Assembly (NCBI GenBank): GCA_029834535.1
Contig: JAQMWT010000617.1
Span: 1-44,581 of the forward strand
Source of the DNA: Chrysophaeum taylorii
Taxonomy: Eukaryota; Sar; Pelagophyceae; Pelagomonadales; Pelagomonadaceae
Length of the DNA: 44,581 nucleotides
Direction of reading: 5' to 3'
Below, in pieces: positions 1 through 39,371 of this stretch. Made by a program: the position numbers and the translations under genes. How positions within the stretch are numbered: the stretch's first letter is position 1; each line of letters begins with the position of its first letter. The notes beneath the pieces are model-generated. The model was not told the DNA's origin. It made no database searches and saw only the letters and a list, made by a program, of their open reading frames with translations.

Positions 1-35
<35 letters not shown>

Positions 36-4187: not shown

Positions 4188-4240
4188 TTTTTTTTTAAAG
4201 GGGACGATTTTCCCCTTCGCTTCTCATCAGTTGAAGGAAG

Positions 4241-12199: not shown

Positions 12200-12442
12200 C
12201 AGGGTCGGATAAGAAAGTTCGTACGAGCCGTTAACTATGTTTCAGTTTGTACTAAGACATACTCAACGGATCGCTGAGCTATGTTCATTTGTACTCAAGC
12301 AGTATGTGCCGCCACGCCGCGAGATCGTCGCGATGGAACTAGTCCCCATAGTGAAGTCGGCATCCTTTCGTCCCCTAACGCAAAAAAGGAAAAAGCCCAC
12401 GCGTTGTAGGACCCGTCGTTGCGGCGCGGGCTAGTCTCGTGG
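12200..12442. mobile_element. Small unclassified insertion in Helitron E, with 6-bp duplication
   Basis: Other Helitron copies are continuous here. In this copy the 243-bp insert is bracketed by CACTCG (12194-12199 and 12443-12448). It begins CAGGGTCGGATAAG and ends CTAGTCTCGTGG. I see no terminal inverted repeat, no coding capacity and no poly-A, so the class is open. Confidence 0.7.
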
Positions 12443-12676
12443 CACTCGTGCTCACATCCACTCACCCCTCTCCTTTGAACTCGTCGCTCTCCCCCCCGCC
12501 AATCTAAGCTGCTTTGATCCGCACACGCCGCTAACCTTTGAGTTTACTCTAAAAACCCCAGTAAGCTCACTTGGCCTCAGTAAGTTCGCCTGGTCACTAA
12601 TTTCACCTAGTCCCAATCTCTAACCTCCGTAAGTCCACCTGGTTCCAGTAAGTTCACCTGGTCCCACTAAGTTCAC

Positions 12677-13269: not shown

Positions 13270-13445
13270 TGTCTGGCTCGCGGGCCTACATGATCCTTAC
13301 CCTAAATCGAGGGACATCCCACAAACCCACCCACATCCTTCATGCTCCCCACACACACCCCCCTCTTAGCAGTCGACCTTTAAAGACAAACAGACAAACA
13401 GACAAACAGACAAACAGACAAACATCTGTCGATTAGTAGTTAGGA

Positions 13446-13900
13446 CTGGTACAAGTGAAATCGGTAACTTTAATTCGCGTACGAAGCGAACGATCCTTTC
13501 TTTTGCAGTCGCGTCGCGTCGCGCGAGACCCCCTTCCACGAGGCAATGTCGCACGCTATACGATGATGATGATGAAACCACTCGATCAGCTTCATGACGC
13601 GAGGGATTTTTGTGAGTTCCCCTTGGCTTCCCGATAATAATCGCTGAGGAGCAAGAGAAGCGCAGCAGAGGATGGTGCGTGATAAAAAGTGCAATGGGAG
13701 GTGCACGGAAGAGCAGGCGAGGGCGCCTGAAATCCAGCCAATTCGGCGAGCACAGAAGCATACCGGCCAAAGCAAAGGCGGTGGTATTTGAACTGGTAGC
13801 CTGCTATTAATGTTTTATAATGAGCTTGCTGTTTTCCCTGTCGTGGTACGGGTGTAGATTACCGCGCGTTGTGCTTGGAAAATTATTATTAGGTAAATAC
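13446..13900. repeat. Non-Helitron flank included in the tandem duplication
   Basis: About 455 bp following the Helitron's 5' end, repeated almost unchanged at 15279-15732. It contains an ATGATGATGATG run. Frames here (for example a minus-strand frame of 134-148 residues) match no family that I recognise and I do not call a gene. Confidence 0.75.
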
Positions 13901-15278
13901 AAGTGCAGGCCAGTAAGTTCGCCAGTAAGTTCACCTAGTCCCAATCTCTAACCCCAGTAAGTTCACCTAGTCCCAGTAAGTTCACCTAGTCCCAATCTCT
14001 AACCCCAGTAAGTTCGGCGTAAACCCACTCGCAGGGTCGGATAAGAAAGTTCGTACGAGCCGTTAACTATGTTTCAGTTTGTACTAAGACATACTCAACG
14101 GATCGCTGAGCTATGTTCATTTGTACTCAAGCAGTATGTGCCGCCACGCCGCGAGATCGTCGCGATGGAACTAGTCCCCATAGTGAAGTCGGCATCCTTT
14201 CGTCCCCTAACGCAAAAGAAGGAAAAAGCCCACGCGTTGTAGGACCCGTCGTTGCGGCGCGGGCTAGTCTCGTGGCACTCGTGCTCACATCCACTCACCC
14301 CTCTCCTTTGAACTCGTCGCTCTCCCCCCCGCCAATCTAAGCTGCTTTGATCCGCACACGCCGCTAACCTTTGAGTTTACTCTAAAAACCCCAGTAAGCT
14401 CACTTGGCCTCAGTAAGTTCGCCTGGTCACTAATTTTACCTAGTCCCAATCTCTAACCTCCGTAAGTTCACCTGGTTCCAGTAAGTTCACCTGGTCCCAC
14501 TAAGTTCACCTACAGTGCGCGTGTAGAAGCCGGGAGGGGGCTTATCGGTATTGCGCAGCACGTGTGGGGCAGGGTGGAGTCGTCGACCCAGAAGAGGATA
14601 TCCTCGGGGTTGCCGACTCGACAGAGAGCCACGTAGAGCTGGACGTGGCAGAAGACGGGCTTTGGCAAGAGGACGCCGACCTCGCGGGGCGTCTGGCCCT
14701 GGCTCTTGTTGATCGTTTGGCGTAGGCGGGCCTTAAGTGATACAGGTTGGAGGAGCCTCGGTGACAACGACACGATCGATCATGTATCTGGTACCATTGC
14801 AGTGGCCGTGCGACGGGTCGAGGTTGCGAAGACCTTCAGCTCGCGCTCAAAATCAGCATGCCGTTGCTGGTCAGGGAGTTGAAAACTCGACTGTAAAGAG
14901 CGAGGCGTCGTCTTCCGACCCAACCTAGTCTGCCGAAAAGAACTCCGACGCCTCGTCTCCGGGAAAAAAAGGCCGCGGTCATGCGCGCGTTGTCAGCATC
15001 GACAACATCGTTTCGACGGGGCGTGAAAATGGCGCGCTGAAAGAGCCGCCGCGGGTCGTGGAAACAGTCTGCGAGGTCGCCGCAGACGGCTTGGAGGATC
15101 AATGTCTGGCTCGCGGGCCTACATGATCCTTACCCTAAATCGAGGGACATCCCACAAACCCACCCACATCCTTCATGCTCCCCACACACACCCCCCTCTT
15201 AGCAGTCGACCTTTAAAGACAAACAGACAAACAGACAAACAGACAAACAGACAAACATCTGTCGATTAGTAGTTAGGA
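13900..15278 (-). mobile_element. Helitron-derived unit F (inverted, duplicate of E)
   Basis: Near-identical to unit E, offset by 1832 bp, including the same 243-244-bp insertion at 14032-14275. The minus-strand end GGCCTGCACTTG is at 13900. Confidence 0.78.
14510..15102 (-). pseudogene. PIF1-type Helitron helicase C-terminal remnant (copy F)
   Basis: Same remnant as in unit E, with TINKSQGQT and QLYVALCRVGNPEDI. Two or more frame changes separate the RAIFTP part from the SQGQT part. Confidence 0.75.
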
Positions 15279-15732
15279 CTGGTACAAGTGAAATCGGTAA
15301 CTTTAATTCGCGTACGAAGCGAACGATCCTTTCTTTTGCAGTCGCGTCGCGTCGCGCGAGACCCCCTTCCACGAGGCAATGTCGCACGCTATACGATGAT
15401 GATGATGAAACCACTCGATCAGCTTCATGACGCGAGGGATTTTTGTGAGTTCCCCTTGGCTTCCCGATAATAATCGCTGAGGAGCAAGAGAAGCGCAGCA
15501 GAGGATGGTGCGTGATAAAAGGTGCAATGGGGGGTGCACGGAAGAGCAGGCGAGGGCGCCTGAAATCCAGCCAATTCGGCGAGCACAGAAGCATACCGGC
15601 CAAAGCAAAGGCGGTGGTATTTGAACTGGTAGCCTGCTATTAATGTTTTGTAATGAGCTTGCTGTTTTTCCTGTCGTGGTACGGGTGTAGATTACCGCGC
15701 GTTGTGCTTGGAAACTTATTATTAGGTAAAGG
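15279..15732. repeat. Second copy of the duplicated flank
   Basis: Matches 13446-13900 up to TTATTATTAGGTAAA, after which the two copies diverge. This marks the far end of the tandem duplication. Confidence 0.75.
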
Positions 15733-17441: not shown

Positions 17442-17949
17442 ACGACAGACTAGCGGCCGCGTCCACTACGCAAAGTGAACTTAGGAATCAACAAGGAAGA
17501 TCGTAGTCAGGTTGATAGACTCCGCGAGAGTCCACCAAAGCTTCGATGATCGTATCTCACGCCATTTGGCACTCGGGCGTCCCCTTAAACGGCACGTCTT
17601 CGAGACACAATCACCTCAACGGCTCCACAATCTTCGAAAAAATCTTCACATATCGGCGGCAATAGTTGCTCATGCCGATGAAGGATCGAGTCCGGGTCTT
17701 CGGAGATTCCAAAGCTTCATCTGACTTTGCTTCCACATACGGTGTAGAAGGCCACCGAACGATCCGAGCGTCGGTGGTAATTTGCTCCGGTTGCAAGCGA
17801 TGTCTGCTCGTTGCTGCGGCATCGGCAACATCATCGGAGACTCGGGCGGAGCGTGCCTTCGCTGGTGACTGCGCTTCGCACGGGGTTTGGAACGCGAAAG
17901 TAGCGCTCGATCGAATAACCCGAATTATCTTGGTATCGGAATCCGTATT
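17442..17949 (-). pseudogene. Minus-strand Ty3/gypsy pol remnant
   Basis: On the minus strand at 17796-17611 a peptide with ITTDARIVRWPSTP, PKTRTRSFIGMSNYCRRY and FSKIVEPL matches the end of gypsy RT leading into RNase H. Nearer the LTR, a short PKFTLRSGRG reading matches the C-terminal end of pol in the plus element (PKFTLCSGRV near 27480). The stretch between is far too short for RNase H and integrase, so the element is heavily deleted. Its 3' LTR is the LTR-B fragment at 17160-17441. Confidence 0.7.
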
Positions 17950-18119
17950 TGTGGCGGAAACTCCCGCCTTCTAAGGCTTACCCCTCCTTTAGCCCCCCCC
18001 TTTATCAGGGACACCCTACTCCGTTCTGATGATGTCAGTTTTCTCTATGACATCATCTTTCTTCTCATGACATGTGTCACCCTGATTTCTGTGATTAAAG
18101 AGTTCTTAATCATAAAGCA
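17950..18119 (+). repeat. 5' LTR (LTR-A)
   Basis: 170 bp from TGTGGCGGAAACTCC to TAAAGCA. The matching 3' LTR starts TGAGGCGGAAACTCC at 27629. It contains a 10-bp inverted repeat, GATGATGTCA and TGACATCATC, at 18028-18057. Confidence 0.82.
18028..18057. promoter_or_regulatory. CRE-like inverted pair in LTR-A
   Basis: GATGATGTCA and TGACATCATC are perfect inverted arms with a 10-base spacer. Each includes an octamer one base from the CREB/ATF site TGACGTCA. The pair recurs at 27707-27736 in the 3' LTR. A role as a bZIP-bound promoter element is inference. Confidence 0.45.
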
Positions 18120-18725
18120 ACAGCCGATCCTCAAGTTGTGAGGACCAGGCACGGAAGTTGTTTGTGATTGTGTGGCGAGCGAACGGCCTTCCACGTCTAG
18201 TGACTCGATCGAGGGCACGGGCGTGAGCGGCGAGCCTAGATTTGAAGGTGAGCCAGGTAGGCAAAATTTCCCTGTACGCCACAGGTGGTGGAGGAATACG
18301 AGATTCGAGCGACCATGTCGGTCGCAGCGGACGAGTGCATCTTGCATTCTCTACACGGTCCGGACAAGCCGTGCGCGCCCTGATCAAGCGCGCCGACGGA
18401 GAGTTCAAGAGGGACCATCGCCGTGGGAAAGATCCCCGGCCGGATACGTTAGTCGTCGGAGGTGACGACGCGCGGATCGGTTCGAGCCGACGCGCAACCC
18501 GGGTACCGCTGCCGCAGGCGAGCGGAGTGAGATCGCAACTCACTGAGGCATTGATTGCCGGGCAGAGACGGATTCTGCCGCCCACCGGAACTGATAGATC
18601 AGTCGGTGGAAGACGCACGCGGCGACGATAATACGCGTGACGTGGACGAGTAGAAGTCCCAGAGTCGTAGGAACACGAGAACGACGACGACTCAACCATT
18701 TTGGACCCGTTCAGACTTTGGCCGA

Positions 18726-20708
18726 TTGGAGCGAGCCGAAGCCGACATGGAGGACGATGAGGCTGCTGACGAGCAGATACGAGAACCTGAACCTTCGAGT
18801 CGTCCCGAGGGGACGAACGAGCGGAACGATGATGATGAAGACGATGTTGATGATAATGATGATGATGAATATACTACCGACGACGATGACGATGAAGAAG
18901 AGCTGAACTACAACGGCGACGAACCGTCGGAAACGCCGCAGGAGAGGCAACCGACAGCTCAGTCGACCCGTGCACGAAACAAAGAAGCACCGATCATGAA
19001 AGAGGTTTACGAGGCTCATCTATGCGAGTTACGCCGAGAAAACGAACGCGCGCAAGAGAGCATTATACAGCAGATAGAAGAAGAAAACAAACGGCGTGAA
19101 CGGCTACGCCAGAAGGAGTTGGGCGAGATGCGAGAGCAACTGCGGAAAGCAAACGCCCTGACGGAGGAATTCCACGATCAAGGGCGGACACTGACCCGGG
19201 TGAGGGGCGAATTACGTACGCCGAGTCGCTCGAGGCGAGCGAGCAGTCCGGGGCCCCGACCCGAGGAAGAGCCGCCGCCTACGCGAACACGCGCTAAAGT
19301 TAGGAAACCGCGCTACGACGACGATGATTACGAGACTAAGGAGGAGACGCGAGACGACGGGAAGGTCAACGACCAGAAGTTCCTCATGGACTTCACTGAC
19401 CGGCTCGCCAGCGCGTTAGCTAAGCATGATCGCAGTAAGGATCGGCGATCAACCTCCGGAATGAAGACTGAAACGTTTAAATTGGTTCTTGAGGGTCGCG
19501 ACCAGGACCAGTTCGATTTAGATGCAGCTGCCGTGATGAGCACGTTGGCCGACGACCATTACAGCATTGAAAAGCTACGGTATTTACTGCCGGTGAGCTT
19601 ACGCGACACGGTCGCACCGATTTTCCGATAGCACTTGAAGAAATACAAAGAAGAGTGCAAGAACCTCGACCATCCGGCGTCTTTTTATTTACGTCGGGAC
19701 GTCGACGATGAAGAGTACGGTTCAGTGGTACGACGACTACGACGACTGAACAGAGAGTACTGCCTCAAAATTTTGAAATACTTCCGATCGAGTTGCCCTT
19801 TGCCCATGACGACAGAGGAGTTACTACGAAAACTTCAGAGTACGACCCAGGCGTCCGTTCCGAAAAGGCCTGGGGAACGCCATGTGCACACTTATTGCAC
19901 CAAATTTCAGAGCGAGGCGATGGCCTACTGCTCTGTGGCAAATCGAGACCTTGATGATGTTGAGATCATCTCTTATTTGATACGCGGACTGGAGTCCAGC
20001 GACTTACGATCCCGCGTGCGGACCGTGCGCAGCGGGCACCCGACTACGCACGATACGTTTACGTCGACGTTGTCACTGATTACGCGGCTCGAGAACGATT
20101 ACGCGACCGCGTTGGAAGAGCGGAACGACCGCAACTCGAAGAACCCGTCGAACGGGAAATCGCAGAAACCGCCGCAGGGACGCGGAGGCCGAGCACTAGC
20201 CTCGGGACCGAAAGATAAGAAGACGAAATACGAATCGTTACGATTAGAAGAGAATCCGAAAAAGTGGTACGAGCTCACATGCAAGAATTGTGGATTTTCC
20301 CTCTCGACCCACGACAAGGATGAACATGGGAGCCGCGTTATTTGCAACCGCGAGCCCGATGAGTATTATGTGGCGATGTGCAAGTACATCGAAAACGATA
20401 AGAAACCTCCCTCTCGAGGCAGATGGGAGAGTCGACAGAAGAAGGATACCCAGTCGCGCGATGATGGCAGTTCGAATGCCACTCTCGGTTCGAGCGCCGC
20501 TCATATTCATGATATTCAGAGCAGGCTCAACGACATGGGCACGCAGCTGACCACGGTCATGGATTCCGTGAAGCGCTTGAAAGATGGACACGGCCGATCG
20601 TCTTCGACACGACCTGGCCGTCGAGACAGCCGGAGCCCCCCGACGCCGCGACAAAAGCCGCAGTCACAGCTCGCGTTCGCGCCGACGGAAAGAAAGCCGG
20701 AGACCTAG
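18726..20708 (+). pseudogene. gag of the methyltransferase-bearing gypsy element, one internal stop
   Basis: Two stretches (301 and 357 residues) lie in one frame, split by a single TAG at 19629-19631. The N-terminus is very acidic (Asp runs from GAT repeats at 18829-18870). Then comes a Glu/Arg-rich coiled coil (about residues 100-150), a gag core with long helices, and a Cys/His cluster at CKNCGFSLSTHDKDEH with a distant C, spacing C-x2-C-x6-H-x4-H, unlike the classical CCHC knuckle. A basic Arg/Ser tail overlaps the start of the pol frame, so pol was probably reached by a frameshift. Confidence 0.72.
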
Positions 20709-22284
20709 CAGACATTCGCGCCGACGCCGGCGACGAAGATCTCGCAACCCGCGATTCGGACGGTGGACGTTACCGAGAAGATTCGGGACATTCGTCTGCC
20801 ACGTTCGCGTTTACTGTGGCGGCAACTCCTGACCGCTAAGGCTTACCCTCCCTTCGCGAGGCTTGATACCCGTTCAACGGGACGCCTTCCCCTACCTTCC
20901 TAGTGATGCTCTTGTGAGCAGCATTCTTGCAGTATTCTTGTAGCATTCTTGCTATCATATACCATCTCTCCATCTTGTTGAGAGGCTTGGTGAGCGTGAG
21001 CATGGTGTGTGGCGAGCATTCCGACCCCGAGTCCGTGTTTTCCTCGTTCAGTGAGGTCTAGGACGAGTCGGTGAATACCCCCTTTGTCACCCAGGTCGGG
21101 AGTGGTTTTTCTGTGCCGCCATATTTACGACCCCCTGCGGTCAACACTTACCATTCGGAGTGATGATGTACCCGGACACGGACACCCGCTCCGACGACGC
21201 AGCCGACGCCCTTGACGCGGCCGCAGTCGAAGATCGTGCTCGTCCGCCGCGGGACGAGCCACCCAACGAAGTGCTGACCGATCGTCGGTCTTTGGCGCGG
21301 ATTTATGAAGAGATGTCGAGCGATGAACTCGAAGAGTCGAGCGATGAACTTGAAGCTCCACGATACTGGGAAGGCGATTCGGACTCGGAAGACGAAGAAG
21401 CCGCACTTTGTGAACCAGTGTCCTCGATTACGTTACTTGACGAGTCGTCCAAGGACGACCCACCGTATGTTTTTGACGAGGAAGCCCTCGACGTTATCGG
21501 CTTATCTTTGGATCCTCCCGAGATGACCTTTGGCGACCGGATTGGCAGTGAGCCAGACATGGATTTCTGCAGCGATAGCACGGATGATCATTCGACAGAT
21601 GAGACGATGACCATTGCGAGTGATGCAGACGACGATCTTACGATAGAGTTGACGTCGGGGACGACGCCATCTTTTCCTGCGGACCCCCCCGAAACGGTTT
21701 CGGTTACGACGGATCGAGCCACGGATACACCGCCGGAAGAAAAGGATACGAAATCGCATAATGCGTCGGACGAGAAGCTACGTGCACGGTCCGAAGACGA
21801 AAGGGACGCTTCTCCAATTGAGCAATGCCTGGATTTGTCACCGCCAGAAGAAGAGAGCAGTGACGGCGTTGCCGGAGTCGAGCCGAACCCGACCGAAGAA
21901 GATGGATGTAAGAAGAAGATTAGCAGCGTTCTCGATTGGGACGAAGATGAGCCGACGTGGAACCTGCAGGATTGGTGGACGAGAACTCGGAACTTCTTGC
22001 TAAAGAAGCCACCAGAACGACCGCTCAGCTACGGAATCGAAGCCGCAGCCGACACGGAACCGATCGGCACCGACTGTGACGATCAACAGATGACGAATGA
22101 ATCTACGGATGCATTCTGGAAAGACGAAATGAACGAGTTATGGGAGAGGTCCTTTGCTTCCGAGAACGCCGAAGACCGGGATCCCCTACCAGCATTGATT
22201 CCCTCCGAGATTGTCATGGAGGAAGAGCGGAAGCCGCCAGATAACCGCCGCGAGCGCTGCGTCGATGACGCCGACGACAGATGA
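20709..22284 (+). pseudogene. pol N-terminal acidic region, interrupted by a solo LTR
   Basis: From about 20640 a frame distinct from gag runs open (DGKKAGDLADIR, DSDGGRYRED, SGHSSATFAFT). Removing the solo LTR and one TTTAC copy makes it continuous with the 374-residue frame at 21160-22284. That frame is rich in Asp, Glu and Ser with no recognised domain. The frame ends at 22284 and overlaps the next one by 74 bases. The segment SGHSSA and the later TSGTTPSF recur in the minus-strand relative at 33-34 kb, so the region is conserved in the family. Confidence 0.65.
20815..21123 (+). mobile_element. Solo LTR (LTR-B family) inserted in pol
   Basis: 309 bp running TGTGGCGGCA...TGCCGCCATA, so 9 of its 10 terminal bases form an inverted repeat. 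It is flanked by TTTAC on both sides (20810-20814 and 21124-21128). The pol frame is open across the site once the LTR is removed. Related LTR sequences lie at 17160-17441 and 34470-34652 on the minus strand. Confidence 0.88.
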
Positions 22285-24901
22285 TACGAGAGCTCAAGCC
22301 GCGGTGTCGATGCCCAACCCCGGCGACGAGCGAGTCAGAGCCCAGTGTTCTCACACTTCGTTGACGCCGCGAGATGGCAAGACTATCGAAGATGATTTGG
22401 TTACCCTCAGTTGTTTGGATACGGGTACTCTTACGTTTATGGCCTGTCACATCTACAGGAATCGTGACGGACCGAAATTCTCAACGACCATCGGTGTCGA
22501 TGGAATGGCAGATGTTTCTTATATTTGCCGCGAAATGGTCAGAAAGTTGGCCAAAGATAAGTTGATTTTCGATGAAGGCGAGCTTCCGATTAAGCGCAAG
22601 CTGTACGGATCGGGGTTGAATACGACGACGATCTATCGTTGGATCGCGATCCGGGTTGCCCTCGCCGACGACATCGCTGCCCCCATTGTCGCTATTGTGG
22701 CCGACACCAACTATCTGTTCCTGTTGGGAGGGCGCGATATCCGAGTTTTAGGAGCCGTCGTGGACTACCCCCACGATCGGATCTGTTTTTATCGAACCCA
22801 AGTCGTCTACGGGCGCAAGAAGATTAAAGTCAAGGGTGAACGAGTCGATGCACCCATTGTGACCTTTCGATCTGTTTACGATCGAGACCCGATAACCGTG
22901 CCGATTTACAATCATCAGCACGACGCCTTTCGGCAGAGTCTCGACCTGGTCAAGACTCGAGTTTACGCTCGTCTGAGCACGATTAAAGATCTCCGCAGCC
23001 CGCCGCCGGAACGAGCGGTAGCCTTGACGACGCGGGGACATTCTACGACCAAACTCCCCCCAGCTCCGGGAGAAGCCGCGCAGGAAGTTGTCGCTTACGC
23101 TGCGCGCACGCTACAAATCGAGCCCGGTCGGACTTACAATTTACCGGTTATTTTGTCGAAGCCTATGGAAAAAGGACAGGTCTTCGTCGCTACGTTTGCT
23201 GAAAACGAGCAGCTGGGAATTGTCGAAGGGATGTGTTCTTCTTGCGAAGAGCACGACAAGTCATCTGCTCGCGTGGCTGTTACTTCCACGCAAGAAGTGC
23301 CGACGGTCGTCACTCAAGGCGAGGTTCTCGCAATTGGCGATATCGTTCGGTACGAAGATGAGTTGAGCGTTTCTACGATCAACGAGCTTACGAAAGAATG
23401 TGAAGAAGGGTACGACAAGGGGAACCTTTCCTTCACCGTTTCCGTCGCTAGTCACTTGACGCGCTGCGACGAATCTCCCCCGCCGATGTTGCTGAGCACG
23501 GCGCAGAAGGACGCTCCAGCCGCTGCTGTGGACGAGTCCTCCCCCAAACGACCCAAGCGAGACGACGATTTCGCTCGACGGTCTGAAGAAGATGAGAAAA
23601 AGTGCCGCGAGATCACCGAAGCGGAGATCCGCCGCCGATACGAAAAGGTTCATTGGCTTCCGATCACTTATCGCAAGGTGGTGATGCTGTTCAGTGGAGC
23701 CGGAGGCACCACTTTAGGTCGCCAACGAGCCAACGAAATGAATGGGACGTCGTTTCGAGTCGGGTTAGCACTCGATTCGTCGGACATCGCTAACATGATC
23801 CACCGCAAGAATTTTCCGAACATTCCTGTGGTGCAGCACACGCTTTGTGGTCGCTATGTCACAACCTTACGGTTGATCGAATCTTATTTACCTTACGCGG
23901 AATGGTCGTCGTCGATGTGTATCGCGTCGCCACCCTGCGTACCCTCCGCTCTGTGCAACTTGACTTCCAGAGATGTTGGGAAGGGAGTCACCGCCACCCA
24001 CTGGACGATGAAATTGTGCAAGATGGCTGGTTTCTTCATGTGGTTGATAGAGCAGGAGGCCTCGATTATTTCTTATGTTGCGCGTTTACACCCTCACGTG
24101 TACGTCGTCAATTTTTACGACATAACGCCCAGTTTGATGAGCTGTCGCGTGCGGTTGTTGGTTTCCAGCCATCCGCTCCATTTACGCGCAGTTCCCGAGA
24201 CTTGCAAGAATATGCAACAAGAGTTCGCTGCGCTTGGCTACGCAGACGAACGGCATTTACTTCAAATGAACAATTTAGGATCATCACGAGCCGCGACAGA
24301 CGCAGCTTATACCGTTACGCGAGTCCCGCTTCGCGTAGGACCGCACCGTTCCGATTACAGATCTCCGAATCAGAAAATGACTTCGGAGTTGCTGACGATG
24401 CCCCTTGATTTTGATTGGGCCGGCTTCTCCAGGACGACCTCGTTGAAACACTCGGCGTCCGTCGTGCCACCAGACACGATGGCTTTATTGGTACTCGATC
24501 TGCACACCTCAGTGACCAAGGATTTTCGCTTGAGCGGCGAGGCTTTGCCGTCCGCGTTGAGTCCTGCAGACCGCCCATTTGATTATTATTTGCAAATCGA
24601 TGAAACCACCCTTCGTCACGTACAAGTTCCGCTGTTAAACACGCGCACACGTGTCGTAAGCTGGGTGTCCACTGATGATCTCCAAGATCGCACCAGATGG
24701 AAACCTCCAGAGGTGCCTTTGCTTCCGCCTGCAACAGATGAGCCGGGGACGTCTCATGCTTATTCTGCTGCCCCCCCCCGACAACCAAATTTGAACGTTC
24801 CGTCAGATCCTGAGCAAGATCGGGGACCGAAGATTAAGAGCGAGCCGAGCGTTCGTGTCAAAGGCGAGAAGATCAACAAAAGCCACCCGGAAGTGGACTA
24901 A
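22211..24901 (+). CDS. pol segment: retropepsin-like domain fused to C5-cytosine methyltransferase-like domain
   Basis: An 896-residue open frame. The retropepsin-like part is near residues 90-200: TTIGVDGMADVSYI sits where DTG/DSG is expected (the triad reads D-G-M), and LFLLGGRDIRVLGAVVDY matches the LLG-R-D second half. The methyltransferase part starts near residue 485. Motif I is VVMLFSGAGGTTLG (about 23680-23721), the AdoMet acidic residue is in GLALDSSD, and motif IV is SPPCVPSALCN with the catalytic Pro-Cys (about 23930-23960). A GSSRAATDAAYTVTRVP segment near 24270-24320 sits where motif VIII (QxRxR) is expected. The ENV motif VI glutamate is not clear and no motif X is seen. This family transfers methyl from AdoMet to cytosine C5. 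The C-terminal 150 residues are Pro-rich and unrecognised. Activity is doubtful in this copy. Confidence 0.82.
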   Translation: MSWRKSGSRQITAASAASMTPTTDDTRAQAAVSMPNPGDERVRAQCSHTSLTPRDGKTIEDDLVTLSCLDTGTLTFMACHIYRNRDGPKFSTTIGVDGMADVSYICREMVRKLAKDKLIFDEGELPIKRKLYGSGLNTTTIYRWIAIRVALADDIAAPIVAIVADTNYLFLLGGRDIRVLGAVVDYPHDRICFYRTQVVYGRKKIKVKGERVDAPIVTFRSVYDRDPITVPIYNHQHDAFRQSLDLVKTRVYARLSTIKDLRSPPPERAVALTTRGHSTTKLPPAPGEAAQEVVAYAARTLQIEPGRTYNLPVILSKPMEKGQVFVATFAENEQLGIVEGMCSSCEEHDKSSARVAVTSTQEVPTVVTQGEVLAIGDIVRYEDELSVSTINELTKECEEGYDKGNLSFTVSVASHLTRCDESPPPMLLSTAQKDAPAAAVDESSPKRPKRDDDFARRSEEDEKKCREITEAEIRRRYEKVHWLPITYRKVVMLFSGAGGTTLGRQRANEMNGTSFRVGLALDSSDIANMIHRKNFPNIPVVQHTLCGRYVTTLRLIESYLPYAEWSSSMCIASPPCVPSALCNLTSRDVGKGVTATHWTMKLCKMAGFFMWLIEQEASIISYVARLHPHVYVVNFYDITPSLMSCRVRLLVSSHPLHLRAVPETCKNMQQEFAALGYADERHLLQMNNLGSSRAATDAAYTVTRVPLRVGPHRSDYRSPNQKMTSELLTMPLDFDWAGFSRTTSLKHSASVVPPDTMALLVLDLHTSVTKDFRLSGEALPSALSPADRPFDYYLQIDETTLRHVQVPLLNTRTRVVSWVSTDDLQDRTRWKPPEVPLLPPATDEPGTSHAYSAAPPRQPNLNVPSDPEQDRGPKIKSEPSVRVKGEKINKSHPEVD

Positions 24902-24902
24902 A

Positions 24903-25504
24903 ATATGAGAAAAGTTCGATGTGCCATGGAAAGATGCGCCGCGCGATGCTGATGGTGCACCGCTGCCGCAAACTCCCGAGCATGTCAAGGATAACGACGT
25001 TATGAAAGTGAAGATTCCTACGAGGAAAGAAGCTGACAAGGTTGTTCAGGAGCTTGGAATTCCTGACAATCCGCACTTAGATGACGATGCGAAGCTGATG
25101 CTCCGTCACTGTGTGCAATATTCTTGGGCCTTTTTCGACCTTTGAACCACGCTTATTTGGTGTTCCAAGAGCTTCCCCGACCTATTGATGACCAAGGAAT
25201 TCCTGCCTCCGGCTGTCACTTCATATTGTCGTTTGTTACGACCGAACTGCCGGAAGACGAGGAAGAAGATCCCGAAAAGGATCCGATGAGATTGGCTACG
25301 TCTCACGCTACGAGACAACGTCGGAAGAACCGCGTGCGCGATGAGCCGCAGGTCTTAAAGGACGCAGCCGCATACAAGGACTATATCGATAAAATTCCCG
25401 ATAATATGACGCTCGATGAGATCGCGCGTGAGCAAGAATCTGATGCTACTTGCGAGGATATTCGCCATCGGATGTCCCAAAGTCATACGTCGCGACGCTA
25501 CTGA
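24903..25504 (+). pseudogene. Pre-RT linker joined to post-RNase H linker; RT and RNase H missing
   Basis: A frame from about 24906 reads VPWKDAPRD...KADKVVQELGIPDN...LRHCVQYSWAFFDL, like the segment just before gypsy RT. It stops at 25145. A second frame (25124-25504) reads NHAYLVFQELPRP then LDEIAREQESD, the segment that precedes integrase. Only about 400 bp separate these landmarks, whereas RT plus RNase H need over 1 kb, and no YxDD-like motif is present. An internal deletion near 25140 is the simplest reading. A TGA at 25502-25504 is in frame with the integrase segment. Confidence 0.7.
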
Positions 25505-25525
25505 GCTAACGAACGATATGAAGTT

Positions 25526-27016
25526 GTGAAAGACATACTTTACCGCATTTCTGCTGATTTGCACCCGATTATTGTGACCCCCGCCACGTTGCGCAAACGC
25601 ATTATTCGACTCTACCATGACACTCCGGTCAACGGTGGTCATATGGGACGTCACAGTACTGTCCAGGCTATCCAGGAACGATTTTGGTGGCCCCACATGT
25701 CGAACGAAGTCGGAGTCTTCATTGCTGAATGTTTAGTTTGCCAGAACGCTCGTACGCCTGAGCTGAAACGAGCTGGACTCTTGCAACAGCCTGTCTACGA
25801 TGGTGATGGCGCTGTTCTCTGCATGGGTTTATTCGGACCTTTGCCCAGCGCTGGTCCCGAGACGTATCTTCTAGTGTTTTTCGATCCGTTCTCGCATTTC
25901 TTGATTTTGGATGTTTTGAATGATAAGGCTGCTGAATCCGCTCTTGAGTCTTTTGTCATTAACATCCTCCTTAAGGGCGACTTGCCCCAGATGATTCGTA
26001 CCGACAACGGTAAAGAGTTCGTGAACAAGTTGATGCGCGAGATTTGCCATCTCTTCAACACACGATACCAAACTACGATTCCCTATCATGCCCAGTCGAA
26101 CCCGGCTGAGCGTGTGAACCGATTTATCAAGGCCTTCGTCCGTGCCTGTCTTCAGGGCCGGAACATCACGGATTGGCCCGACTTTGCCCACTATATTGCG
26201 TTTTGCTACAACCGCAAGTTTATTCCAGGCACGCAGATTTCTCCCTTTATGCTACGCCTGAACCGTCAGCCGATGTTGCCGACCGATTATACGCTTATGG
26301 ATTTCGATACCAGACTGTTGCCAAAGACTCGCTCTGATGCAGTCGCTGAAACTCGTGAACGATTGAAGTATTATACGAAGATCGTCCACGAAGCTCGTGA
26401 GAAAGCTTTGAAGAAACAACGATTGGCTTACAACGCCGATCATGTCGATGTCGAATACAAGGAGGGATCGCATGTTTTGCTCTACATTCCTTTCCTTCAG
26501 AACAAGCTTCGACCGGAATGGCGAGGACCGTTTATTATCAAGGAACGCCTTTCCCCGGTCACCAATAGGATTGAGTCTCTCGACTCTCCGCCCGAAGAAC
26601 GACGCGTTCATGTTAGTCAGATCACGCCTGTGATGGTTCCTCCGATCGTTGATCAAGCCATCCGCAAACCCGAAGAAACCTTCCGTGATGATTATCAGCA
26701 CAGTAAGTTTGTTGTTTTCCGGATTCGTGACCGGAAGCGCTCTGATTGGCGCAAGAAGATCTATGTTGCTGGAGTTTACAGCCTTACGATTACCAGAATG
26801 ATCGTGTTGTTCTACATTTCTATTCCGATTTGGGTCCGAACGATGATGTCGCTCATTTCAAGCCGACCTCTCCACAGGGGTATATATAGCCCCGGGCATT
26901 CGCACACACCAGGACCGGCATTCCTACCCTCACCTTTTGGTTATGGGCCCTTAAAGCGCTCGAGGTGGTTCGCGCGTTCGAATCCGCCCCACCGCTGCGC
27001 CGTAAGGAGTGTGTGA
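25526..27016 (+). CDS. Ty3/gypsy integrase
   Basis: Open from 25505, reading YEVVKDILYR. The H2C2 zinc finger shows as RLYHDTPVNGGHMGRH then CLVCQNA. The rve core has FFDPFSHF (first Asp), IRTDNGKEF (second Asp) and NPAERVNR (Glu). The GPFY-like tail follows at RPEWRGPFIIKERLSP. After about 26770 the natural reading moves to another frame (DYQNDRVVLHFYSD). That frame continues, once the TRIM-like insert is taken out, through NRKLKPEYKDVDGRSF to a TAG at 27586. The last residues of the open frame cover the TRIM and are not part of the protein. Confidence 0.88.
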   Translation: MKDILYRISADLHPIIVTPATLRKRIIRLYHDTPVNGGHMGRHSTVQAIQERFWWPHMSNEVGVFIAECLVCQNARTPELKRAGLLQQPVYDGDGAVLCMGLFGPLPSAGPETYLLVFFDPFSHFLILDVLNDKAAESALESFVINILLKGDLPQMIRTDNGKEFVNKLMREICHLFNTRYQTTIPYHAQSNPAERVNRFIKAFVRACLQGRNITDWPDFAHYIAFCYNRKFIPGTQISPFMLRLNRQPMLPTDYTLMDFDTRLLPKTRSDAVAETRERLKYYTKIVHEAREKALKKQRLAYNADHVDVEYKEGSHVLLYIPFLQNKLRPEWRGPFIIKERLSPVTNRIESLDSPPEERRVHVSQITPVMVPPIVDQAIRKPEETFRDDYQHSKFVVFRIRDRKRSDWRKKIYVAGVYSLTITRMIVLFYISIPIWVRTMMSLISSRPLHRGIYSPGHSHTPGPAFLPSPFGYGPLKRSRWFARSNPPHRCAVRSV

Positions 27017-27628: not shown

Positions 27629-27779
27629 TGAGGCGGAAACTCCCGCCTTCTAAGGCTTACCCCTCCTTTACCCCCCCCCTTTATCAGGGGCACCCGACTC
27701 CGTTCTGATGATGTCAGTTTTCTCTATGACATCATCTTCCTTTTCCGTGACATGTGTCACCCTGATTGTGATTCAAGAG
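27629..27779 (+). repeat. 3' LTR of the gypsy element, first part
   Basis: Matches 17950-18100 of the 5' LTR, including the CRE-like inverted pair at 27707-27736. It stops at GATTCAAGAG, where the Helitron is inserted. The rest of the LTR is at 28932-28946 and 32380-32385. Confidence 0.82.
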
Positions 27780-28931
27780 TCCAAACTACTAATCGACAGA
27801 TGTTTGTTTGTTTGTTTGTTTGTTTGTCTGTTTGTCTTTAAATGTCGACTGCTAAGAGGGGGGTGTGTGTGGGGAGCATGAAGGATGTGGGTGGGTTTGT
27901 GGGTTTGTCTGTTTGTCTTTAAATGTCGACTGCTAAGAGGGGGGGGTGTGTGTGGGGAGCATGAAGGATGTGGGTGGGTTTGTGGGGTTTGTCCCTCGAT
28001 TTAGGGTAAGGATCAGGTAGGCGCGAGAGTAAGGATCTGGTAGGCGCGAGAGCCAGACAGTGATCCTCCAAGCCGTCTACGGCGACCTCGCAGACTATTT
28101 CCACGACCCGCGGCGGCTCTTTCAGCGCGCCATTCTCACGCCCCGTCGAAACGATGTTGTCGATGCTGACAACGCGCGCATGACCGCGGCCTTTTTTTCC
28201 CGGAGACGAGGCGTCGGAGTTCTTTTTGGCTGACTAGGTTGGGTCGGAAGACGACGCCTCGCTCTTTACAGTAGAGTTTTCAACTCCCTGACAACCAACG
28301 GCATGCTGACTTTGATCGCGAGCTTAATGTCTTCGCAACCTCGACCCGTCGCACGGCCACTGCAACGGTACCAGATACATGATCGATCGGGTCGTTGTCA
28401 CCGAGGCTCCTCCAACCTGTATCCCGTAAGGCCCGCCGACGCCAAACGATCACCAAGAGCCAGAGGCAGACGCCCCGCAAGGTCGGCGTCCTCTTGCCCA
28501 AGCCCGTCTTCTGCCACGTCCAGCTCTACGTGGCTCTCTGTCGATCGGCAACCCCGTGGATATCCTCTTCTGAGTCGACGACTCCACCCTACCCCACACG
28601 TGCTGCGCAATACCGATAAGCCCCCTCCCGGCGTCTACACGCGCACGGTAGGTGAACTTACTGGGACCAGGTGAACTTACTGGGGTTTGAGATTGGGACT
28701 AGGTGAACTTAGTGACCAGGTGAACTTACTGGGACCAAGTGAACTTACTGGGGTTTTTAGAGTGAACGCAAAGGCTAGCGGCGTGTACGGATCAAAGCAG
28801 CTTGGATTGGCGGAGGTGAGAGCGACGAGCTCGAAGGAGAGTGGGGTGAGTGGGTGTGAGCACGAGTGGGCTTACGCCGAACTTACTGGGGTTAGAGATT
28901 GGGACTAGGTGAACTTACTGGCCTGCACTTG
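27780..28931 (+). mobile_element. Helitron-derived unit G, inserted in the LTR without target duplication
   Basis: Runs TCCAAACTACTAATCGACAG to GGCCTGCACTTG. Left host bases are CAAGAG and right host bases TCTCTTATT; the 5' LTR is continuous here (AAAGAGTTCTTAATC). The insertion is therefore flush, begins with TC and is followed by T, as expected for Helitrons, although the 3' tetranucleotide is CTTG and not the canonical CTRR. The microsatellite/GCTAAGAGGGG block is present twice (27840-27990). A PIF1 remnant lies at about 28060-28620. Confidence 0.82.
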
Positions 28932-28946
28932 TCTCTTATTAATAAT
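28932..28946 (+). repeat. 3' LTR of the gypsy element, second part
   Basis: 15 bp of LTR between the Helitron and the hAT element. Its last 8 bases, TTAATAAT, are the left target duplication of the hAT. Confidence 0.7.
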
Positions 28947-29284
28947 CAGCGTTGGGAATTCACTTCAGCAAGTGAACGTGAACCACTTCACCAGCCACGC
29001 AATATTGGTGAAGTGATTTGAAGTGAACACGTCACCCTACGTGGCCATCGTGAACCTTTGTGAAGTGAACGCCACTTTATTTATTTTTTTTTAACGCCAA
29101 CGCCGGTCCCTGTCGCGCCCCGTCAGTTCCGTGCCCCCCGCGCGCTATTGCCTAGGTCTGGTGCTCTTAGATTCATTCGCGTTTCGGGACGAAGGAGGAG
29201 TTACCGAGGATGGGGTTCAGTGTTTCTTACTTTAGGCGATGTGAACGACCTCGGTATCTTCGTCCGGTTCTTCCTCATCAACCT

Positions 29285-32100
29285 TCATCTCCAAAGAGTC
29301 TCGGGGATGGTGCTCTCGGCGTTTTTGAACTCGGTCTCGGCGAGGTCCCTGTACTTAATCCGGGCCGCCGCAATGAAATTCTTGTTCATGCGCAGTAGGG
29401 CAACTTTGTCCGTCTCGTCCGCGCCGAGCAACGTGTTTACCTCGGTCGGGACAAGATTTCCAATGCTCAGGCAGCGCTCGCAGTAGCTCTGCGCGCCATG
29501 TGTACCAATTGAACCCTTAGAGGCGCTCGCCATGTCCGGAAGGAACCCATACTGCTCCTTGGTGAGCGGTCGATACAGCTTTCCAACGTCGAGCACAGCC
29601 AGATCTGTGAAGCCGAGTTCGTCTTTCTTCTCAAGTTCAGGATATATTGCACTTTCCAGTTGAGCGATCTCGAGAGCCTGATCCATTGAGTGAAGGCCTG
29701 TTCAAACTCCACATTGAAATCGGGCATCTGGTTCTTAGCACAGGGGTATATATAGCCCCGGGCACTCGCGTACACCAGGACCGGCATTCCTACCCTCGCG
29801 TTTTGGTTATGGGCCCTTAAAGCGCTCGAGGTGGTTCGCGCGTTCGAATCCGCCCCACCGCTGCGCCGCAAGGAGTGTGTGAGTGTCCTCGAAGCAGTTG
29901 CCGTCGCCAACTGCTGGAGCCCCATCGTCTAGCACACACACTAGACCCCCCTCACATCATCTGGGCGCTCTCACTTACCAGGACCGGATGTTCATCTCCG
30001 ACGCAGATGTTCATCTTAATCTTAAGCAGATGGCGTCGTCGTCTGCTGGGTCCCCACCGTCTCGCATACATGCTTGACTCGCCCCAGATGTTCGCGTTTC
30101 ACTATGATGGGGAAGCACAGGGGTATATATAGCCCCGGGCACTCGCACACACCAGGACCGGCATACCTACCCTCACCTTATGCATACATGCTTGACTCGC
30201 CCCAGATGTTCACGTTTCACTATGATGGGGAAGCACAGGGGTACATATAGCCCCGGGCGCTCGCACACACCAGGACCGGCATTCCTACCCTCACCTTTTG
30301 CTTAGGCATAGCAAAAGAAGGCACGTCGCCACTAATGTCGTCCCAAGCGCCGGGTGCGTCGAGTGCCGCCAAGAGACTGCGGGCAGGCGCAGGCTCGGAG
30401 GAAGTCTTTGCCTTTTCGTGGTGGAATGCAGTCCGTGCGTAAATCACATATTCTTCCTTGAGCAACTTCCTGGCCTGAGCTCTCTGATTGGACGACAGGT
30501 GCCGGCAGTTGATAGTCGGAAAGTCAAGAAGGAAGGCAATCAGCTCGCGATCGTTGAATTCGTAGTCGAAGTGACGCACGTGGTTTTCATTATTCCGGCA
30601 AAACCGACGCTCACATTCGAGTATAGCCCGCTGAAGACAGATTTTTCCGGTCTCGCTGAGGTCGTCAACATCGACAGTCTTACGTGGCATGGATTCGCAG
30701 TTATGTTCGGGAGATCAATGACTTCTAACGTCCCAGCTCGCAGAGAGTCGATCATGTTGTGCCTGATCAATGCGGCGTACGCCCCCAGGTATAAGTGTTC
30801 ATGTTGCACGAAAACAACGGGGTCATCCGTTATAGCAAAAATCGCCTCGAATTCAGACAACGCCACCCATTGCTCCTCACTGATCGTCCGGGGGAGTCCA
30901 ATGTTGGTAGCCGTGTACAGTTTGAGCACGTGGTGCATACGCAGCAAGGAACGAATAAGTTGGTATCGCGCCCGGAACCTCGTCTTATTGAGGTCGAGCT
31001 TGAGCTTGAGCTTCGGCGATTTCCCCGGCTGTAATGGCAAAAGCGCATGCAGATCCTTCAAACGTGTGCCGTAAGAAAAGTACTTGGCTCCATCGTGGGC
31101 ACTGCTCAGCAGCTCCTGGCCTGCTGGGAATGGATTGATCACCTGCTTGCCTCTGGATCGTGTCAAGTCGCCACATGCCGCTGCCGAGATTTTTGAGATA
31201 TCATGCATGTCACACGCTTCGACCTCAACAAAAATTTCTTCAGCGACGCCAATTGCAGCCCGGTCTTGAACCATGGTTGCGGCCACCAAATCGATATCGA
31301 TTCTCGCACGCTCCGCGACCACAGAACGGAGCAGAGAAGCCGTGCCGGAATCGGTTCCGTCGTCAGCTGGAACAAGGCCCACGCACACCGTCTCAACGCC
31401 ACTCCAATCGGGCCAAATGAAGGGTAGGCCAATGGCCTGTCGCTTGAACTTATCCTTGAGTGTCCCGCCGTCATGCAGCACCTGGGCGAATGGATTGACG
31501 AAAGCCGCTTCATAACACTCCGTAATGACGTGCTTCAAGATTCGAACAAAGCAACGATATTCAGCGCCCACCCATTCAAGCAGCGCCTTTCGAGTCATGA
31601 ACGGGCACTTGCCTTTCCCGCCACCGACGTTGTAATACGCCTCAATTAGGTTGCGATGATCTTCGTCGTCAAAGGTGCGCTTGGAAATCCGCTGCGACGT
31701 GTACACGTAGTGCCGAGCAGAGAACGCCATCAGGGAAGAGTGCTTTGCCTGGCTGGGCATGGCCATGAAGTATCTCGTAATATCCGATTTACCCTTCGAG
31801 GCTGCCACAACGCCCACGGCCGTCATAACGCCCTCCTTTTTTTGGTCTGTCTTCTGTTTCTTGGTGAGCTGTTGACGTCCCAGCTCATCCTCCGGATGCG
31901 CAGCCTTGAAGTGGGCAAGGGGCTTGGTCGTCTACCATGTGCCTTTCTTGAAGTCTCTCGTCACCTTCAGGCGCCCCCAGCACCGGATACACACATGCGT
32001 CGCCTTCCCACTGACGCGGTCAGGACGATTTTCCTTCAGTCGACGCACGCAGTCCCACACCTTGGACCTGGTTGATCGTCAACTTTTGCCGGGTGTGTTC
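29285..32100 (-). pseudogene. hAT transposase with BED zinc finger, broken
   Basis: From the minus-strand 5' end: a BED finger at about 32075-31900 (SKVWDCVRRLKE, CIRCWGRL, then HFKAAH, giving C-x2-C and H-x4-H), with a TAG stop inside it. A 428-residue frame follows (31826-30540), containing HVITECYEAAFVNPF and the acidic stretch DMHDISKISAAACGD. A frame change near 30690 leads to DVDDLSETGKICLQ...FAMPK. The reading is then split by the TRIM-like element and resumes in frame at NQMPDFNVEFEQ. Another frame change near 29690 leads to the C-terminal dimerisation region (CERCLSIGNLVPTEVN). At least four lesions are present, so it cannot act alone. Confidence 0.75.
29739..30300 (+). mobile_element. 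TRIM-like element 2, inside the hAT transposase gene
   Basis: 562 bp flanked by CTTAG (29734-29738 and 30301-30305). It has three terminal-repeat copies: 29739-29805, 30116-30182 and 30234-30300. The third follows a 51-bp copy of the inner 3' region. The outer form matches element 1. The extra repeat looks like unequal recombination or a tandem addition at the 3' end. Confidence 0.8.
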
Positions 32101-32379
32101 CACGTCAGCATCGACGTCGCAGTCGGCTCGTTCTTGTGCTCCTCCTTCTGTTCCGCGTATTCCACCTCATCATCAACATTATCCTCCACCTCCAGGTAGC
32201 GCGGCTCGACTTCGCTCATCAGACGGGGTCAGGGTCAGGCCGTCAGCCGAAGTGAATGAACGTGAAGTGAACATTGGACTTCGGACGGAAAATTTCGGTG
32301 AAGTGAAGTGAAGTGAAGTGAACCAAATTCAGTGTACCTAGTGAAGTGAGCCCAGTGAATTCCCAACGCCGTTAATAAT

Positions 32380-32385
32380 AAAGCA
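32380..32385 (+). repeat. Last bases of the split 3' LTR
   Basis: AAAGCA, matching the end of the 5' LTR (18114-18119). It is followed by a leader that resembles the one after the 5' LTR, so it borders a second element. Confidence 0.55.
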
Positions 32386-32550
32386 AGAGCCGATCCTCAA
32401 GTTGTGAGGACTAGGCACGGAAGTTGCTTGTGGTTGTGCGGCGAGCGAACGGCCTTCCTCGTCCAGTGACTCGACCAAGAGCGCGGACGCGAGCGGCGAG
32501 CCTAGATTCGAAGGTGAGCCAGGTAGGCATAATTTCCCTTACGCCACAGT
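32386..32550 (+). repeat. Second copy of the gypsy leader
   Basis: About 165 bp resembling 18120-18284 (GAGCCGATCCTCAAGTTGTG, GGCGAGCGAACGGCCTTCC, then ACGCCACA). Similarity ends there. The following sequence belongs to the minus-strand relative, so this is a truncated junction. Confidence 0.72.
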
Positions 32551-34469
32551 ATTCGTCGTCGCGCGATCGGCGTCTGTGCCGGCGCGAACTCCGACTGGGG
32601 TGCTTGTTATCTTTGTCTCTCTCTGGCGTCAGTTCGGCGGGGCCCGGTATCTCGGGATCGGCTTCGTCCCTGTAAACAACTGGTGCTCCTAGGTCTATCC
32701 GAACTGCCTCCGTCGTCTCGTCTATCGAAACGTCGACACATATGTAATCTTCTTGCCGAAACTCCGACCACGCGCGAATTAACTCTCCGTTGGCGAATAA
32801 ATCCATGCCTCGGGGTCGGAATCGCACTTCTTTCCGCTATGGCGGTTTCTTCCTTAGGAAACAGTGAGCTCGTATCCATATCTTCTGTACGCTCATCTCC
32901 CTCTTATCCATGCTAATCGTCCCATCCAAATTCGATTCTGGGCGGCACCCTTACTCATCCCTCATAGTCTGTTCGGGATCTTTCTTTATCACATAGCCAT
33001 CATCATATGCAGGCTGAAAATTTTTGAACTCTTCGTTCGTGAGTAATACGCCAGGGCTTTCACAGAGCTCCAAAGGCGGTTCATGCATTATAAGGTTCTT
33101 CACCTCTTCAGATTTCGTATTCATTTTCTCGGCCACTTCACTCGGCCTATCATCAGCTCCATCGCTTAAAATGTCGGCAATTGCCTCGTCACTAAAACTG
33201 TCTGCACACGAAACGTCTGCCATCGGTTCTGCCATCGGCAAAATGTCTGCAATGGGTTCTGCAATCGGTTCGTCGGGGGGGGGGCTGCAAAAGAAGAAGG
33301 CGTCGTCCCCGACGTCACATCTGTCAAGAAATGGCCATCAGAGGGCACGTGACGTTCGATGGGCGTGTAAACAGGTGCGCGCTTATCATTCGAGATAATC
33401 CTCTGCGACGCATCGTTGATCGATTGGGGAGACGAAGTGTCATCCACTTGAATGTCCGGAGGTAGACTCATAGCATCGAGCGTAGCAGCGGCGGCCCATT
33501 CCTTTGGGTGTCATCGGCTGCACGGGGCTCGGAAGTCCAATTCAAACATAACTCCGGCGCGTCGTCATAACCATGGGCTGTGTTAGCTGACGACAAATCA
33601 TATCCTGCCATAGACGGTGACACCGGGCCAGAAGCGGTTGTTTGCTTCGGCCCGTAGTTTAACGACGATTCGGTCAGATTCTCCGATCCTGTGGGGACTT
33701 TGGTTTGGGTGAGCTTGTTCGACTGGGATTGCTCTTGCCCGTAGTTTAACGACGTTACGGTCAGGTCCGAATTCAGCAAGAACTGCTGCTGATGGGAGGT
33801 TGCGCATTCAGCGCTCGAATGACCGGAGTGGCCGCCGCCGTCGTAAGCGCATCGGCGACCGGGAAATAGACACACCCTATCAGGGTCGTAGTCGGCGTCC
33901 GCATAGGCAGTCCGCTCCACGAGTGGTCGGTGCTCCCGATCCGTATTGTTCGAACGTATCGCGATCCGACCGTTGCTGGTTGATCGTTGAGCTGCTCGTC
34001 TCTTTTCGTTCTCGGCTTTCCACGCTTCATGCTGGCGCCGAAATTGATTGATCTGCTCGCGCAATGCCGCGTTCTTGGCATTTTCCTGGCGGAGCGCTTC
34101 TTCCAATTCATATAACTCTTGTAATTCAGTAGCGTCGACGTTCTTGTCGTCGCGCATTTCTCCTTCCTCGCGGCCTGATTCAACGGCTGCGGGAGGCACT
34201 GGAGGACTGGAGGATATCCTTCCTCACGCACGTCTGCGTCTTCTTTCATACTGTCGATGAGGAATCTCGAAGCAAGTCCGGATTCGATCACTCGAAGCGA
34301 TGCACGTCGTTAACAATGACGTGATCCGTCGCTGTCAAAACAGCACTCGCGGAGTTCTTGTCCGCCTGGCAATCCAAAACCCCGCGTGGGTAGCGATCCC
34401 ACTCGCTAACAGCTCCCGCCGTCCAGCTATACCAAAATCAATCCCGGGTGAATGCGCTGCGATTTCCAA
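32551..34469 (-). pseudogene. Internally deleted gypsy relative, minus strand (gag and pol N-terminus)
   Basis: The minus strand reads from the LTR-B fragment downward. At 34199-33468 a 243-residue frame has a coiled coil (ELYELEEALRQENAKN) like the plus element's gag, then DGGGHSGHSSA, matching the gag/pol border of the plus element. It also holds two imperfect copies of SLNYG-x-x-Q. At 33471-33166 the segment TSGTTPSSFAAPPP matches TSGTTPSFPADPPE of the plus element's pol. Most of gag and all of protease, RT and integrase are missing. No methyltransferase motifs are present. Frames at 33241-32951 and 32827-32560 look protein-like but unrecognised. Confidence 0.62.
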
Positions 34470-39340: not shown

Positions 39341-39371
39341 GTCTGTCTGTCTGTATGTTTTTAAATGTCGA

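Follow-up and report, generated by a model that had tools for sequence, protein, structure and literature searches.

The window analysed here, a stretch of 44,581 nucleotides on contig JAQMWT010000617.1 of the pelagophyte alga Chrysophaeum taylorii, contains a Ty3/gypsy retrotransposon whose pol region carries a domain resembling C5-cytosine methyltransferases (C5-MTases). A single frame at 22199-24901, 900 codons from stop to stop, holds all four marks named by an earlier sequence-only reading (a retropepsin-like domain, FSGAGG, LDSSD and SPPC), with motif I beginning about 300 residues past the retropepsin-like stretch. The evidence supports placing the window element in a large Ty3/gypsy family with a C5-MTase domain between protease and reverse transcriptase (RT) in pol. 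That placement, proposed by the sequence-only reading, held up in the Pfam matches of relatives, profile comparison, the domain order of other copies and the signature of purifying selection. The window copy itself is a damaged, dead element copy; because it lacks most of RT, the order protease-MTase-RT is taken from other copies.

Results

A large Ty3/gypsy family with a methyltransferase domain in pol

The genome searched comprises 70.8 Mb on 697 contigs, and the published assembly is described as 71 Mbp on 702 contigs (PMC10366177). Including the window, 117 scored matches to the window MTase stretch were obtained (out of 1059 candidates), at 77-100% identity, and 96 of them have no stop in the matched stretch. 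These constitute family A. Its most complete member, L040, encodes protease, MTase, RT, RNase H and integrase in one frame, and the Pfam matches RVT_1, RT_RNaseH, Integrase_H2C2 and rve, each above its cut-off, follow the Ty3/gypsy domain order. The gag-position region of L040 is recognisable only in its first part; in L039 and L041, gag-position region, protease and MTase share one frame.

The association also emerges when the search starts from RT. Among the RT places scored (the best 142 of 1094 candidates), 71 have a listed MTase upstream, at 1.2-2.2 kb from start to start. Five of the 71 places without one were inspected, and all five also carry an MTase, broken or rearranged. The domain is thus not confined to the window copy and, as set out below, it has significant C5-MTase matches; either failing would have spoken against the sequence-only reading.

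A sister family, A', accounts for 135 further matches, some of them fragments of one copy. Its MTase domain is 34-43% identical to that of family A, and the MTase precedes RT in A' as well as in the intermediate lineages L041 and L052. Relative to L040, MTase identity is 81% in L041, 71% in L052 and about 40-43% in A', and RT identity is 93%, 73-76% and about 57-63%, respectively. Recombination was considered for L040 and L041 in view of their RT and MTase identities and was rejected, the synonymous divergence (dS) being similar in the two domains (1.60 and 1.98). The protease motif of families A and A' reads DGMA (window 22496-22513, L061 and L051); the usual retropepsin motif is D[TS]GA.

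Evidence that the domain is a C5-methyltransferase

Whether the domain is a C5-METHYLTRANSFERASE receives a negative answer from Pfam on the window copy alone and a positive one on its relatives. The hidden Markov model (HMM) search against PF00145 that the sequence-only reading had suggested gave no match at E<=1 for the entire window frame and E=0.12 for its MTase domain alone, and when PDB sequences were searched with just this frame, no C5-MTase came up. Among A' and related loci, PF00145 matched L047 at 2.8e-10 (40.6 bits against a cut-off of 22), L046 at 4.4e-10, L048 at 2.3e-9 and L051 at 1.9e-8, the sister-family match falling in two separate stretches. Isolated domains of L041 and L040 reached 6.8e-6 and 1.8e-5, and the partial L052 reached 4.3e-4, under the cut-off; with entire frames as input, L040 and L041 score 18.4 and 19.2 bits, also below 22. 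Searching PDB sequences with profiles built from the alignments yielded C5-MTases as the sole matches, none of them significant (best E 0.11 and 0.088).

An HMM of 20 proteins from a DNMT2 search scored the window frame at 24.2 bits (E=1.5e-6). As a decoy control, this HMM was run on 827 frames, each 100 residues or longer, taken from the window and other loci, together with the same 827 reversed. All 28 matches at E<=1 are MTase-bearing frames, a few being the same copy twice, and no decoy is among them; no frame of the copia-type family B described below appeared at E<=1 in this run. In hhalign, the comparison with the same 20 proteins gave 96.3% across motifs I-IV. A forced global alignment paired the two SPPC motifs, the Glu residues of EQE and ENV and the two RxR motifs with each other, and the TP..xSRxR stretch with its DNMT2 counterpart; the rest aligned poorly. 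The spacing from catalytic Cys to Glu is 38 residues in the window frame, 40 in L047 and 41 in the host DNMT2.

The motif names I, II, IV, VI, VIII and X on the window frame are those we take to apply from the C5-methyltransferase motif order. Motifs were counted in 31 loci of families A and A', excluding L001 (a duplicate of the window); as L002 equals L039, these represent 30 copies. Motifs I, IV, VI, VIII and X occur in 30, 30, 29, 29 and 27 of the loci and in 29, 29, 28, 28 and 26 of the copies, and several misses are truncated copies. Motifs VI, VIII and X, whose integrity in other copies the sequence-only reading had proposed to check, recur, in altered form. Motif VI fits the pattern E[QE]E in all but two of the 30 copies, having lost the Asn and Val of ENV; motifs VIII and X retain both Arg and VPP, having lost the Gln of QxRxR and the Asn of GN(x)VPP. 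All 12 rows of an alignment spanning families 34-36% identical to the window copy share the Cys, the Glu and both Arg. An alternative assignment, in which motif VI is lost and VVNFYDI occupies the ENV position, was rejected: the sister-family alignment and the global hhalign place VVNFYDI in motifs VII-VIII and identify EQE as motif VI. Taken together, these comparisons show by alignment a domain homologous to C5-MTases that retains the Cys, Glu and Arg on which catalysis is expected to depend, together with the S-adenosylmethionine (AdoMet) glycine loop.

Enzyme class and relatives

Profile scores of the two families point in different directions. L040 of family A scores 33 bits with the DNMT2 HMM, 24.8 with PF00145 and 18 with dcm, and L047 of A' scores 40.6 bits with PF00145, 25.5 with dcm and 13.4 with DNMT2; the local DNMT2 matches cover chiefly motifs I-IV. 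By these scores the MTase matches no class clearly among the three profiles, and it appears to be an orphan, divergent lineage. Scans of viral and prokaryote contigs revealed no relative, and phage records gave nothing better than E 0.8.

The genome-wide PF00145 search yielded 124 matches, among which only two are host-like C5-MTase candidates. One is the host DNMT2 gene (L009, contig C634), 100% identical to CTAYLR_008533 across 360 residues. The other, L010 (1006-3537), is a host gene with a PF00145 match at 7.9e-18, presumably DNMT5-like from its motifs.

Selection on the methyltransferase domain

Ratios of nonsynonymous to synonymous divergence (dN/dS) were calculated by the Nei-Gojobori method; between subfamilies dS is 0.9-2.8 and partly saturated, and several saturated pairs gave no ratio. 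For the MTase, dN/dS is 0.06 in L040-L041 and in L042-L041, 0.06 in L047-L061 and 0.04 in L048-L061; RT gives 0.03, 0.03, 0.04 and 0.10 for the same four pairs. The protease shows 0.08-0.13 in pairs yielding a ratio, and the linker between protease and MTase 0.16-0.19 in L040-L041 and L042-L041 and 0.22 in L040-L052. Closer pairs have ratios of 0.12-0.21 for the MTase and 0.12-0.22 for RT. In the very close pair L061-L062 the values are 0.85 and 0.76 at a dS of 0.02, as expected of copies decaying after insertion. Judged from these codon comparisons, the MTase domain is shown to be under purifying selection about as strict as that on RT.

Structure and decay of the window copy

The features of the window copy are collected in Table 1. 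It has long terminal repeats (LTRs) with TG..CA ends and a target-site duplication, as befits a Ty3/gypsy element. Both of the matching LTRs noted by the sequence-only reading are present with the duplication GTATT, the 3' one being split by a 4.6-kb insertion. This insertion is not recent, since the LTR halves are 92.3% and 90.5% identical to the 5' LTR. In the copy on contig C5, the LTR pair is identical at 345 of 363 positions (95%; some flank is included in the alignment). That gag lies upstream and integrase downstream is borne out for integrase by Pfam; no Pfam gag match was obtained in any frame scanned, of the window or of other loci, and the label "gag" is therefore positional. Similarly, the window domain which we take to be retropepsin-like was recognised by its motifs and has no Pfam match.

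The coding region is split over several phases, with an in-frame stop inside the gag-position region. The RT that the sequence-only reading placed after the MTase is reduced in this copy to about 77 N-terminal codons. Alignment of the window with another copy skips about 1.4 kb at 25138-25140, so that RT and RNase H are mostly lost.

Table 1. Features of the retrotransposon copy, with positions numbered along the window
Feature	Position	Strand	Remarks
Target-site duplication GTATT, left	17945..17949	.	Matches the right-hand 5 bases
5' LTR	17950..18283	+	334 bp; begins TGTGGCG, finishes CGCCACA; matches the LTRs of the copy on contig C5
Possible primer-binding site	18286..18297	+	TGG-starting stretch immediately inside the 5' LTR
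gag-position region	18654..20708	+	Two same-phase frames parted by a stop; start aligns with the L040 frame start
Acidic region between gag-position region and protease	21055..22284	+	Different phase in the window copy
Retropepsin-like domain (presumed from motifs)	22415..22874	+	VDGMAD at 22496-22513, LLGGRDIRVLGAVVDY at 22721-22768; outer limits approximate
C5-cytosine-methyltransferase domain	23660..24514	+	Assigned from profile and alignment comparisons
Motif I, FSGAGG (AdoMet loop)	23690..23707	+	29/30 copies
Motif II, LALDSSD	23765..23785	+	Read in the window frame
Motif IV, SPPC, with catalytic Cys	23927..23938	+	29/30 copies; hhalign pairs it with SPPC of DNMT2
Motif VI, LIEQE instead of ENV	24044..24058	+	28/30 copies; Glu 38 residues past the catalytic Cys
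Motif VIII, SCRVRLL (RxR)	24140..24160	+	28/30 copies
Motif X-like, ASVVPP	24455..24472	+	26/30 copies; Pfam profile positions 260-321 in L051
Conserved extension 3' of the MTase core	24515..24703	+	Adjoins the domain
RT N-terminal remnant	24902..25140	+	Remaining RT and RNase H deleted in the window copy
Integrase frame, zinc-binding and rve domains	25505..27016	+	Pfam Integrase_H2C2 1.1e-18, rve 3e-9
3' LTR, first part	27629..27780	+	92.3% identical to the 5' LTR; begins TGAGGCG
Insertion within the 3' LTR	27781..32371	.	4.6 kb; satellite-like repeats and a fragment resembling the element's own 3' region
3' LTR, second part	32372..32548	+	90.5% identical to the 5' LTR; finishes CGCCACA
Target-site duplication GTATT, right	32549..32553	.	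Same 5 bases as left

Elsewhere in the window, a P21-Rho-binding domain and a protein kinase domain (Pfam) at 5139-6419 on the minus strand mark a probable host PAK-like kinase gene. Many copies of a repeat of about 1 kb, direct as well as inverted and some of them in tandem, lie at 18-4190, 12066-15730, 27780-28947 and 39370-42126.

A second, copia-type family with a methyltransferase

The genome-wide PF00145 search also uncovered a repeat family, B, with 111 genome matches, some of them fragments of one copy; its loci include L064, L025 and L020. In L064 (97-5952) a single frame runs from a DGGAS protease-like motif through a C5-MTase (PF00145 1.1e-7) and a weak rve match (E 0.006) to RVT_2 (1.6e-38), and this domain order is that of Ty1/copia. 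Motif VI of the family B enzyme is ENV. In hhalign the A and B MTases do not match each other (0.2%), although both match the DNMT2 alignment (96% and 84%, respectively). Two separate captures would be the simplest reading of these alignments; a single capture followed by very deep divergence is possible.

The window also holds a copia element at 6929-11926 on the minus strand, with RVT_2, SH3-like, gag pre-integrase, weak rve and zinc knuckle matches; no MTase was detected in its scanned frames.

Discussion

Taken as a whole, the observations are best explained, in our moderately confident judgement, by a Ty3/gypsy family with a pol-borne C5-MTase that is packaged, released by the protease and active on the element's own replication intermediates. 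The location downstream of the protease, retention together with RT and the retained catalytic residues suggest that the enzyme is packaged with the replication complex. Gag-pol would bring the MTase into the virus-like particle and the protease would free it there; release as a separate pol product, as the sequence-only reading proposed, is plausible. The enzyme would then methylate cytosines of the RNA, the primer or the cDNA. A mark left on DNA would be short-lived or non-mutagenic, because integrated copies carry no clear deamination footprint.

Several observations weigh against this reading. In a collection of 5.8 billion proteins, no relative was found with the MTase domain as query at E<=1 among the candidates scored, nor with the alignment as query at E<=10 among the best 7997 candidates. 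AlphaFold modelled the window domain alone with a predicted local distance difference test score (pLDDT) of 31.5. Catalytic activity is not to be assumed, since the Asn and Val have gone from ENV, the Gln that follows PPC has not been kept, and motif X lacks its Asn. The observed/expected ratio of CpG is 1.20-1.32 at family A loci and 1.00-1.04 at A' and B loci, compared with 1.13 across the entire window, 1.14 in the surroundings of the kinase gene and 1.26-1.46 in those of the host DNMT genes. CpG is thus not depleted in A, and A' and B are at expectation but below the host stretches examined. Private transitions at CpG relative to other C/G sites give a ratio of 1.36 in A (29/3457 vs 36/5830, 10 copies; 1.35 with the duplicate copy included); the ratio is 0.84 for five A' copies and 0.75 for eight B copies. 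The slight excess in family A amounts to few events, and there is no clear C-to-T deamination footprint; therefore, either the DNA is unmethylated, or its methylation is short-lived or efficiently repaired, or else the enzyme acts on RNA. Stable DNA self-marking is not supported, and the sequence-only suggestion that the element marks its own copies found no backing in either CpG depletion below expectation or a clear excess of private C-to-T changes at CpG.

An enzyme working like DNMT2 as an RNA methyltransferase, on packaged primer tRNA or on genomic RNA, would account for the lack of a clear deamination footprint in DNA, for the preference of family A for the DNMT2 HMM over PF00145 and dcm, and for the alignment of SPPC and the TP..xSRxR stretch with DNMT2. 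It also has a counterpart in a published Ty3/gypsy family with an RNA-demethylase open reading frame (PMC9289625). However, the sister family shows the opposite profile preference, and the primer-tRNA search identified none: its pattern occurred at 8 places against 7 in a reversed control, and the three of the eight places inspected held no tRNA. We consider this explanation somewhat unlikely. A broader version, in which gypsy-type and copia-type elements captured different C5-MTases downstream of the protease and at least the gypsy enzyme acts not on DNA but on RNA, either primer tRNA or the genomic RNA inside the particle, is offered tentatively and as unlikely; if true, it would mean that a retroelement encodes an RNA cytosine methyltransferase which its reverse transcription requires.

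The unusual EQE motif VI, the loss of several otherwise common residues and the short stretch between motifs VIII and X would fit a pseudo-enzyme whose fold is retained for binding AdoMet or nucleic acid, or as a pol spacer, without catalysis. The invariance of Cys, Glu and both Arg goes beyond a spacer's needs, and we hold this to be distinctly unlikely. Very unlikely, in our view, is an enzyme directed at the host, reshaping its silencing or countering competing DNA viruses, although an antiviral role has been proposed for retrotransposon methylases (PMC6338049) and the copy number is high. The dead state of the window copy and its poor score on its own might suggest motifs that arose by chance, or a passenger picked up once by one copy, but the 117 scored matches, the selection, the sister family and the clean decoy control contradict this, and we find it hardly credible.

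Methyltransferase-bearing retrotransposons, a gypsy element included, are already published; new here are the host class, a divergent orphan enzyme and a probable copia capture. De Mendoza et al. (2018) described LINE and DIRS elements and a charophyte gypsy element with DNMTs, crediting two earlier studies with DNMTs linked to RT domains (PMC5890265). Their KnitGypsy-Dnmt3 from the charophyte Klebsormidium nitens resembles family A of the pelagophyte in being a Ty3/gypsy element present in several copies, with a C5-MTase inside the pol frame under purifying selection (Ka/Ks < 0.2 in KnitGypsy); its domain order is shown in a figure, and the term "protease" is absent from the paper's main text (PMC5890265). 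In contrast to family A, which has EQE for ENV and matches no class clearly among the DNMT2, PF00145 and dcm profiles, the KnitGypsy enzyme is Dnmt3-related with key residues conserved. SymbioLINE-Dnmt and SymbioDIRS-Dnmt3 of Symbiodinium likewise represent hundreds of retrotransposon-borne C5-MTases and more than one capture in one algal genome, but in LINE and DIRS elements instead of the LTR gypsy and copia elements of Chrysophaeum taylorii (PMC5890265). SymbioLINE copies are reported as CpG-depleted (PMC5890265), unlike the element copies studied here, and Symbiodinium copia elements are described as lacking a DNMT (PMC5890265). DNMT2/TRDMT1, whose profile scored highest with family A among the three compared, differs in being a free-standing host gene with ENV as motif VI and a longer stretch between motifs VIII and X. 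Orchid Ty3/gypsy elements with an ALKBH5-like RNA demethylase also gained a nucleic-acid-modifying enzyme, but as a separate open reading frame and as a demethylase (PMC9289625). Among the papers searched, mostly judged by title and the start of the abstract, none reports a methyltransferase retrotransposon of pelagophyte or copia type, and the main text of the genome paper contains no word starting with "retrotranspos" or "transpos" (PMC10366177). As far as these searches show, the copia-type case is the first; priority for the pelagophyte and copia cases is not certain.

A cytosine methyltransferase carried by a retrotransposon is a paradox, as methylation usually silences such elements. The published cases found are from dinoflagellates and a charophyte, and pelagophytes form a third algal group. 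The MTase downstream of the protease in both families, together with RT-like constraint in the gypsy family, argues for its usefulness to LTR elements, and that no clear deamination footprint is seen speaks against stable DNA self-marking. What the enzyme acts upon can be put to the test in this alga, which is grown in the laboratory and has a genome of 71 Mb.

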